Shown here: positions 12,640-15,571 of the stretch, piece by piece
How positions within the stretch are numbered: the first letter of the stretch is position 1
Layout: each line of letters starts with the position of its first letter
From: Spirochaetaceae bacterium
GTDB taxonomy: Bacteria; Spirochaetota; Spirochaetia; Treponematales; Treponemataceae
Direction: 5' to 3'
Length of the DNA: 64,000 nucleotides
NCBI GenBank assembly: GCA_017618015.1
Contig: JAFZVC010000037.1
Coordinates: forward strand, 62,001-126,000
Position numbers and translations under genes: made by a program
The notes under the pieces: model-generated
What the model was told of the DNA's origin: nothing
Seen by the model: the letters and a program-made list of their open reading frames with translations, nothing else
The model's database searches: none

Positions 12640-14487
12640 TTAACATATTTTGCGGTCTTTTGCAAGAGAGTCAGCTTCGGCTATCATTTTGCTATGCCAT
12701 TCAAGAAGAGAGGCTTCATCTTTTGGCTTGTTTCCTTTAACGTCGCACATAACACGGAAAACTGGTTCTGTACCGCTGCCACGCATCCAAATGTATGCTA
12801 CTGATTTTCCGGCTTCGTCCTTGAAAAGAATTTTCAAACCGCCTTTCTTTGAAATAGAGTAGTCTTTTATATCATCAGTCTGTTTCGTTCCGTTATTCGA
12901 GATAGCTGTATACGAACTAATGCCGTACTTTTCTTTAAGCTCCTGCTTTTTTGCTTCCCATTCGCTTTCAAAAACTTTCTGATATGCTTTTTTAAGTTCT
13001 GCATGGTCAGTTGTTTTTATGTGAAGCACGGCTCTTGGCTCGGAAACTCCGGTCGTTGTATATTCTGGCAGCGTAGCCATAACGTCCGTAAGAGTGAAGT
13101 CATCCTTGTAACAGGATTCCTGACCTGAGCGCGCGCACCATTCATGGAACAAGCCTTTTTTCGTTGTTCCGTCAGGGTTTACTGAATCGCGGAGTACAAG
13201 AAGTTTTATAAGCGCGAAAATACTGTTAAGCGGGTCACGTACTGCTGCCGGGTGAGTTATGTTGCCTCCGTTTGAGCCTTCGCCCAAAATGCGGACTTCA
13301 TAGCCTTCAGAGCGGAGTTCCCTCGCTTTGTTTACGACGTTTGCTTCGCCAACTTCTGCACGCCCGACTTTCGCCCCGAATGCGGCGGCAATCTCTTCTA
13401 TACGCATAGAGGTTGGGTCGTTGACTGCGACGGCGAGCTTTGTATTCTCACCAGTTTTACCTGTATATGCAAGATATGCCAGCTCAGACATAACGGAAAC
13501 AGCGAAAACTTCCTGTGCTTTAAGGACTTCTGCTTTGTTTGTCTTTTCGTTCCAAAAAACAATGTTTCCACGGTCGCCGTCGCAGTCCGGCATATAACCA
13601 AGAATGCATTCAGGGTGAGCTGTGTGAAGGGCTTCCATCTCTTTTGCGCAGTAAACAAGGTTTTCCGGCTCCGGGATAATTGCGTGTGCAATGTGTCCAG
13701 GCTTGTTGTTGAGTGTGAAAAAGCCTATTCCTGTATCAGCAAAAAAGGCTTTGTCTATAGAAACTGTCCTAGCACTTCCGTTCATGTCGCATACGATCGC
13801 AAGCGGTTTTTTCTTTGTGTTTTCTGTTATCTCCGCAAAAAGCTCGTTCTGCTTCTTTTCGTCAGTAGAGCCTGAAATAACTTCGCGAGTGAAAGCGGTG
13901 TATGTTTCGAGCGTCTTTTCTTTTACGGACGATGCGTTTGCAAGTACTGCCTCAAATGCTTCTTTGAAGCAAGAATTTGCGGCTTGGGAAGCTTTTTGCG
14001 GAGCATCTTTGTCGGCGCAAAAAGCGCGGAACGCGTCAGCAAGAATCGCTGCTTCTGAGCCGGGAATTACGCCGCCATCATTCTTTCCGAACTTTATTCC
14101 GTTATGTCCGATAGGGTTATGACTCGCGGAAATATAAACAAATCCGTCAACTTTGTGCGAGTACGACATAATCTCAGGCGCGGCGATAATTCCGGGGAAT
14201 TCAACTTCAAAGCCTTTTGCAACAAGGACTTTAATAATTTCGCGTGCAATAAGCGGACCTGTTGGTCGCGCATCAATTCCGACGACTATTCTTTTTGCGC
14301 CGGAGCGAGCCATGTAATCACCATAAACAATGGCAATTGCCTGTGAAATTGTTGTATGCGCCGCGTCAATGAGCGGAGTGGCGTCTTCTTCATCACCAGA
14401 GTCGGCGAATACACAACGCCAGCCTGATGCGGAGAGAATCATCTTAGAAACTGCTTCTTGTAAATCTGAAAATAATGTGTTTTCCAT
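12640..14487 (-). CDS. Alpha-D-phosphohexomutase (phosphoglucomutase/phosphomannomutase family)
   Basis: 615 residues, longer than the usual 450-580. Catalytic phosphoserine loop YISASHNPIGHNGIKFG (Ser122), metal-binding loop DCDGDRGN (about residue 303), sugar-binding GEGSNGGN, and phosphate-binding RGSGTEPVFRVM near the C-terminus are all present. It interconverts hexose 1- and 6-phosphates, feeding glycogen, glycan or glycolysis pathways. No Shine-Dalgarno precedes ATG 14487, which lies only 2 nt after the tmRNA 3' end on the same strand. An internal Met16 is an alternative start but also lacks a ribosome site. Confidence 0.9.
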   Translation of the reverse strand: MENTLFSDLQEAVSKMILSASGWRCVFADSGDEEDATPLIDAAHTTISQAIAIVYGDYMARSGAKRIVVGIDARPTGPLIAREIIKVLVAKGFEVEFPGIIAAPEIMSYSHKVDGFVYISASHNPIGHNGIKFGKNDGGVIPGSEAAILADAFRAFCADKDAPQKASQAANSCFKEAFEAVLANASSVKEKTLETYTAFTREVISGSTDEKKQNELFAEITENTKKKPLAIVCDMNGSARTVSIDKAFFADTGIGFFTLNNKPGHIAHAIIPEPENLVYCAKEMEALHTAHPECILGYMPDCDGDRGNIVFWNEKTNKAEVLKAQEVFAVSVMSELAYLAYTGKTGENTKLAVAVNDPTSMRIEEIAAAFGAKVGRAEVGEANVVNKARELRSEGYEVRILGEGSNGGNITHPAAVRDPLNSIFALIKLLVLRDSVNPDGTTKKGLFHEWCARSGQESCYKDDFTLTDVMATLPEYTTTGVSEPRAVLHIKTTDHAELKKAYQKVFESEWEAKKQELKEKYGISSYTAISNNGTKQTDDIKDYSISKKGGLKILFKDEAGKSVAYIWMRGSGTEPVFRVMCDVKGNKPKDEASLLEWHSKMIAEADSLAKDRKIC

Positions 14488-14489
14488 AG

Positions 14490-14844
14490 TGGAGGTGGGG
14501 GGAGTTGAACCCCCGTCCGAGCGTGCGTACCAGGAACGTCTACAAGTTTAGTAATGCGAGGTGGTTGTCGGGAGCCGGTAGCAGCATTACAAGCGTCGTC
14601 TCCGTATTCCGGTAAAAGTCCCTGATGTGTACCGGACACCGCATCAGGCAAGCTCTGATTAGCGTCAGGATTTCAATCCGCGCAGAGCGGAGCAGACTGA
14701 ATCCTGCGAATTACGCAGCGAGTGCGTATTCTTCGTAGTTGTCTTCTTCTTTTTTGGCAACTATAGTTTTTGTCTGTTCAGAGGACAGGCAACCTCACTT
14801 GCAGTTCAAGATCTCAACACGTCCGTCGAAACCGGTGCACCCCC
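14490..14844 (-). ncRNA. ssrA: Transfer-messenger RNA (tmRNA)
   Basis: The minus strand begins GGGGGTGCACCGGTTTCGAC, the standard tmRNA 5' end, and finishes with a T arm (GGGGGTTCAACTCCCCC) and ACCTCCA, which pairs with the 5' GGGGGTG. CCA is not encoded (CTA follows the discriminator A). The tag frame runs 14758 to 14711 and encodes AKKEEDNYEEYALAA then TAA, ending in the protease-recognised ALAA. It rescues stalled ribosomes. It is immediately upstream of the phosphohexomutase gene. Confidence 0.97.
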
Positions 14845-14899
14845 TAAGATAAAAATCAATGATATGAATATACTTAAGTTTGAGATGAAAAACAAGTAT

Positions 14900-15529
14900 T
14901 TATATCTTCTGAATCTGCTTTGTGTTTATATATTTTTGCCGTATCAGTATAAAGCGGACGAGGAATACGACTCCTATAAACATCATGACGCATGCTACGC
15001 AATCAATAAAAAAGTGAATTGGTGAGCCGATAAGCTCTTTTTTGAAAAGGATTGAGCTTACAATAGCCAAGATGATACCTACGGCAAGAAGGAACGATAA
15101 AGCAAAAGACTTGCTTTTCTTGCGGTTGATTCTGTCTACGTTAAGCTCATCGCCGGATGTGAAGAACGATACGATTTTTCTTATAATCCGTGTGAAAAAG
15201 CCAGGATTCCGAAGCTTTTCTAGCGCAGCATAACCAGCGAGGAGTTCTTCATCCGAGAAATCGTAACGCTGTGTGTTTTCCTCAAGCTCCATCTCAAGCT
15301 GAGAAATCTTATCCTGTGCGCTTTCAAGAATATTAACCTGAATTGTAGTCCAACCAAGCTGTTTCGCCGCTTCCAGTCTTCTCTGACCGGCGATAAGCTC
15401 GTATTTGCTGTTGAGCGTTATAGGATTCATAAGGCCATATCGCTTAAGGCTGTCTTTTAAGGCTTCCAAATCGCCTAAATCCTTGCGTATGCGCTTTTTG
15501 ACTTTTATATCATCTATACTAATAAGCAT
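14900..15529 (-). CDS. Membrane-anchored ParB-like protein (ParB N-domain plus two membrane segments)
   Basis: 209 residues. Residues about 1-85 are a ParB/Srx-type N-domain: IDDIKVKKRIRKD (box I), YELIAGQRRLEAAKQLGW (box II, GQRR in place of GERR) and EENTQRYDFSDEELL (ENxQR box III, the CTP-binding motif). There is no helix-turn-helix or dimer domain. Instead a linker leads to two membrane helices (about 142-163 and 175-200) and a short basic tail. Start Met at 15529 is preferred because AAGGAG lies 10 nt upstream; Met at 15538 would be only 1 nt from it. Function is unknown; tethering of a CTP-switch domain to the inner membrane is inference. Confidence 0.7.
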   Translation of the reverse strand: MLISIDDIKVKKRIRKDLGDLEALKDSLKRYGLMNPITLNSKYELIAGQRRLEAAKQLGWTTIQVNILESAQDKISQLEMELEENTQRYDFSDEELLAGYAALEKLRNPGFFTRIIRKIVSFFTSGDELNVDRINRKKSKSFALSFLLAVGIILAIVSSILFKKELIGSPIHFFIDCVACVMMFIGVVFLVRFILIRQKYINTKQIQKI

Positions 15530-15571
15530 TTTTGTCATTCTCCTTGAAAAAAGCGGAATGTCTCAAAATCA

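Follow-up and report, generated by a model that had tools for sequence, protein, structure and literature searches.

A phosphohexomutase start codon two nucleotides from the tmRNA 3' end in Treponemataceae: a possible bacterial form of tRNA punctuation

In the window analysed here (the whole stretch of DNA, 64,000 nucleotides long), a gene for a phosphohexomutase starts 2 nt past the end of the gene for tmRNA, the RNA that rescues stuck ribosomes. This junction is real and lineage-specific. The account that we favour, and hold to be somewhat probable, is that the tmRNA promoter transcribes both genes, that RNase Z cleaves their joint transcript just behind the discriminator A73, and that the resulting 5'-CU-AUG message is translated in near-leaderless fashion from Met1. 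The wider proposal, for which the case seems to us evenly balanced, is that this is a bacterial form of tRNA punctuation, in which the RNase Z cut of tmRNA creates a near-leaderless enzyme mRNA, has replaced a leaderless promoter, and has arisen independently with another gene in a second genus (genome G042).

Anatomy of the junction

The features concerned are as follows; G000 denotes the genome of the window.

12640-14487, minus strand: phosphohexomutase (PGM/PMM superfamily), 615 aa, Met1 at 14487 (ORF; Pfam PF02878, PF02880; N-terminus MENT conserved in G005 and G006)
14440-14442, minus strand: Met16 codon, rival internal start (no Shine-Dalgarno sequence; no -10 box in leaderless position)
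14488-14489, minus strand: 2-nt spacer CT, predicted 5' end of the mutase mRNA (5'-CU-AUG) (from sequence)
14490-14497, minus strand: tmRNA acceptor 3' strand CACCTCC plus discriminator A, predicted RNase Z cut 14490/14489 (from sequence)
14490-14844, minus strand: tmRNA (ssrA), mature 3' end A73 at 14490, CCA not encoded (Rfam RF00023, 147.9 bits; ARAGORN)
14711-14758, minus strand: tmRNA tag reading frame, AKKEEDNYEEYALAA and stop (ARAGORN, gene positions 87-134)
14867-14872, minus strand: -10 TATATT of the tmRNA promoter, presumed driver of tmRNA and mutase (from sequence; conserved in G005)
14890-14895, minus strand: -35-like TTGTTT of the tmRNA promoter (from sequence; conserved in G005)

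The order on the minus strand is A73 (14490), C14489, T14488 and the ATG (14487-14485). A preliminary description had given these ends and the 2-nt gap, and had noted the lack of a Shine-Dalgarno (SD) sequence before Met1; the sequence, the RF00023 match and the ORF bear out the former, and the latter is also correct, the bases upstream of the ATG being those of the tmRNA T arm and acceptor stem. RF00023 covers the tmRNA at full length (model positions 1-374), with both the tRNA-like domain and the tag frame present; the match runs on to 14487 because the model includes the CCA positions, which here read CTA. The acceptor stem, GGGGGUG/CACCUCC, closes at 14491.

The mutase carries PGM_PMM domains I and III, with scores for PF02878 (79 bits) and PF02880 (23.9 bits) above the gathering score, and so belongs to that superfamily; since it reaches none of the NCBIfam equivalog cut-offs, it is called a phosphohexomutase at most and no substrate is assigned. 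Just upstream of the tmRNA, at 14900-15538 on the minus strand, lies a gene whose product has a ParB N-terminal domain and hydrophobic segments in its C-terminal part; no equivalog model fits it.

Conservation and rarity

Seven genomes of this genus within the Treponemataceae were compared, among them G000, a rumen Treponema relative. The sister genome G006 (RUI404), an independently assembled MAG, has the same junction in the form A73-TT-ATG, with TT in place of CT, which rules out an assembly artefact. Comparison of tmRNA-mutase synteny among relatives, as proposed in the preliminary description, showed the order to be kept with a spacer of about 60-90 nt in G005 (MAG RUI560), G002 and G001; outside the genus, no same-strand adjacency of the two genes was seen when coordinates were compared in 118 genomes of the family. 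In the mutase tree G000 and G006 are nested within the spacer-bearing members of the genus, with moderate support for the grouping (94/82). The two remaining genomes are without a close mutase ortholog; G003 has an intact tmRNA, and from G004 neither tmRNA nor mutase was recovered in full.

An ATG 0-6 nt past the tmRNA end occurs in 17 of 274 genomes of the family and 26 of 393 of the phylum, roughly the chance level, but a long conserved ORF at that place is not chance: an ATG near the tmRNA end that opens a real long gene is rare, and most of the other such ATGs open ORFs of less than 100 aa. Three candidate parallels, an aroA-like ORF in G041 and those in G360 and G559, were set aside, as in each the protein is likely to begin at an internal Met or at a point beyond the abutting ATG. 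When G000 was searched by pattern for ATGs that abut tRNA genes, most matches were due to chance, and the genuine tRNAs among them were followed by neighbouring genes or terminators, with no long ORF starting at the junction.

Leaderless-type promoters

In two of the spacer-bearing relatives the mutase appears to have a promoter of its own at a distance typical of leaderless genes. The box TATACT ends 7 nt before the Met1-equivalent ATG in G005, and TGTTATAGT, with its TATAGT box, ends 6 nt before the ATG in G002. These two and 12 loci from other Treponemataceae, T. berlinense included, make up 14 distinct mutase loci in which TANNNT lies 6-10 nt before the ATG of a short N-terminus and no SD is found; TGn stands ahead of the box in 11 of the 14. 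About 17 other mutase orthologs carry an SD, mostly with a longer N-terminus. Among genera of the family the mutase alternates between a short N-terminus with a leaderless-type promoter and a longer one (about 37-51 aa before SASGWR) with an SD. At three loci of the T. bryantii group the mutase apparently starts at a TTG, after an ATGGGAG stretch that provides an SD, with a possible short upstream start. Leaderless genes being defined here by a -10 box 5-10 nt upstream of a start without an SD, no such box is present for the mutase in G000 or G006.

The same arrangement is frequent elsewhere in these genomes. For G000, with starts sampled from about 225 kb, a -10 box at 5-9 nt was found at 23 of 80 non-SD ATG starts (about 29%) versus 26 of 970 internal ATGs (2.7%; p 1e-14), and for G002 at 35 of 76 versus 51 of 812 (p 9e-19); starts that bear an SD almost never have a box at those distances. 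Judging from these sequence counts, leaderless initiation appears to be common in this genus. Leaderless transcripts are known experimentally from another spirochaete, Leptospira interrogans (PMC5243855), and, according to an earlier in-silico survey, 6 of 18 Spirochaetes genomes had leaderless genes, which averaged about 4% in those six (PMC3160421). The counts add sequence evidence for common leaderless initiation in the Treponemataceae, a family for which no transcript map was found in the open literature searched.

The start codon of the mutase

The N-termini of the mutases are MENTLFSDLQEAVSKMILSASGW in G000, MENTSYSDLQDAVAKMILSASGW in G006, MENTQYTDLQDAISKMILSASGW in G005, MNTTNFQEALSKLILSASGW in G002 and MDTSSLILSASGW in G001. 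The first four residues, MENT, are identical in G000, G005 and G006, and the G005 -10 box is placed for the equivalent of Met1. At the position of Met16, G002 and G001 have Leu, and the ATG of each lies upstream of it; other orthologs also begin upstream, such as MNTTNFQEALSKLILSAS and MDTSSLILSAS, the latter with Leu at that position. Within codons 2-15, G000 and G006 differ at 7 of 42 nt, a far lower share than the 67 of 134 third positions that differ in codons 17-150, and there are no indels; this constraint is real but not clearly of the protein type, because the changes, few as they are, are not mainly synonymous (2 synonymous to 4 nonsynonymous codons).

The preliminary description had offered two alternatives, processing of the tmRNA 3' end to give a leaderless mutase mRNA, or an internal start at Met16 (14442). 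The first, in a near-leaderless form, is now the better supported, given the ortholog starts upstream, the G005 box before the Met1 equivalent and the abundance of leaderless-type genes in the genus. For translation from Met16, in which the preceding 45 nt would be a short leader left by tmRNA processing or transcribed from an unrecognised start, it can be said that this Met stands directly before the conserved core ILSASGWR, that many orthologs have a Met there, and that the protein-level constraint on codons 2-15 is weak. Against it stand the upstream starts and the Leu of G002 and G001, the shared MENT, and the low divergence of codons 2-15. An SD upstream of Met16, which, together with a transcription start there, the preliminary description would have taken as evidence against processing, was looked for and not found, nor is there a -10 box at leaderless distance from that codon. 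We therefore favour Met1 as the start on these comparisons and regard Met16 as unlikely. The two starts predict different N-terminal peptides, MENTLFSDLQEAVSK for Met1 and MILSASGWR for Met16.

Transcription and processing

A likely tmRNA promoter, TTGTTT-17 nt-TATATT, stands in the same form upstream of the G005 tmRNA. No minus-strand terminator was found between the tmRNA and the mutase, and a sigma70-like consensus scan, which also missed the likely tmRNA promoter, gave no minus-strand promoter-like site between that promoter and the mutase ATG. Simple terminators follow 41 of 104 distinct tmRNA 3' ends in the family, and none of the 104 has an encoded CCA; the listed tRNA genes have none either. 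Since the tmRNA and tRNA genes examined encode no CCA, their 3' ends must be formed by cleavage behind the discriminator, the CCA being added afterwards. RNase Z, which cuts CCA-less precursors directly after the discriminator (PMC7479834), is found above the cut-off in 7 of 7 genomes of the genus (TIGR02651, 361.8 bits in G000).

In the favoured account, tmRNA and mutase would be transcribed together from the tmRNA promoter, with no terminator between them; RNase Z would cut the precursor after A73 (14490), as the tmRNA gene encodes no CCA; and the tmRNA would then receive its CCA by addition, leaving a near-leaderless mutase mRNA, 5'-CU-AUGGAAAAC..., whose translation would start at Met1 by the leaderless mode of initiation apparently common in the genus. 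The 5' region of this predicted mRNA folds weakly: with -5.9 kcal/mol over 60 nt it shows no more structure than shuffled sequences. Because G000 and G006 nest inside the spacer-bearing members, the spacer and the mutase's own leaderless-type promoter were probably lost in their common ancestor, with the cut now supplying the 5' end.

Several points count against this proposal. The C at trailer position +1 may slow the predicted cut, cytidines at the start of a trailer being inhibitory to RNase Z, with CC and CCA the documented poor substrates (PMC7479834). In one in vitro test of the B. subtilis enzyme, about half of the products were cut 5-6 nt further downstream (PMC7479834), which at the mutase junction would destroy the AUG. 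The 2-nt leader also means that the predicted message is not strictly leaderless, and leaderless translation in mycobacteria requires an RTG at the 5' end (PMC4633059).

Translation could also begin at Met1 without an SD on an unprocessed or differently trimmed tmRNA-mutase precursor, the tmRNA body serving as a structured leader and the RNase Z cut being incidental. No spacer, terminator or promoter parts the two genes, and many genes in this genome are without an SD, but the place where the 30S subunit binds would be taken up by the folded tRNA-like domain, the CACCUCC ahead of the start is similar to an anti-SD, and tmRNA maturation, from what is known of its biology, would need a cut at this place; we consider this decidedly unlikely. 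A promoter within the tmRNA gene that yields a separate mutase transcript is very unlikely, for the scan from the tmRNA 5' end to the ATG gave no minus-strand site and the leaderless -10 position falls in the GC-rich acceptor stem, even if the scan knew only the sigma70-like consensus, missing the likely tmRNA promoter itself, and ancestral mutase genes had a promoter of their own.

Parallels in other lineages

If tRNA punctuation is taken to mean that a start codon lies 0-3 nt beyond a tRNA-like 3' end whose CCA is not encoded, the sequence arrangement is present in G000 (A73-CT-ATG) and G006, and G042, a member of another genus, has it with a different gene. There the tmRNA is followed by the CT-ATG of a 199-aa outer-membrane-type protein (G042:C41:5100-7455), several orthologs of which are preceded by leaders of the SD type and begin with a similar MK(H/R) signal peptide. 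As far as its sequence indicates, this is an independent abutment of a tmRNA and an ORF, parallel to the mutase junction. In G524, from another family, the tmRNA and an ORF of 441 aa are parted by 1 nt (A), and the product of the ORF has a signal-peptide-like N-terminus. Each of these two parallels is represented by one genome, and neither protein has a Pfam match.

Relationship to known systems and significance

The preliminary description had suggested that the junction ties ribosome rescue to a sugar-phosphate enzyme. Such a regulatory or functional link is unsupported beyond the location of the genes, the mutase of relatives either having its own promoter or being unlinked to tmRNA.

The closest likeness is to the tRNA punctuation of animal mitochondria, as summarised in PMC11112386 (citing Ojala 1981): a CCA-less tRNA-like 3' end abuts a start codon, and the cut of a tRNA 3' endonuclease would form the 3' end of the RNA and, on its other side, an mRNA nearly devoid of a 5' UTR. 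Unlike the mitochondrial system as outlined there, this one is in a bacterium and involves tmRNA in place of a tRNA and a single gene where mitochondria have a transcript of the whole genome, with processing that is predicted. The mutase also resembles the leaderless mRNAs of mycobacteria (PMC4633059) and of Leptospira, which gives a spirochaete precedent (PMC5243855), in lacking an SD and in having its AUG at or near the predicted 5' end; their 5' end is a transcription start, whereas that of the mutase would be made by RNA processing, 2 nt before the AUG. With the RNase Z processing of CCA-less pre-tRNAs in B. subtilis and archaea (PMC7479834) it shares the predicted cut directly after the discriminator and subsequent CCA addition, though the trailer, normally discarded in those systems, would in this case serve as an mRNA. 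No precedent for a bacterial leaderless mRNA made by tRNA or tmRNA 3' processing was found in the open literature, subscription journals being outside the search.

If the proposal is true, the junction would be the bacterial equivalent of tRNA punctuation in mitochondria, enabled by a high share of leaderless genes, and a concrete case of RNase Z producing an mRNA instead of discarding a trailer; it would also allow the choice of start codon to be examined where the structure of tmRNA fixes the junction.
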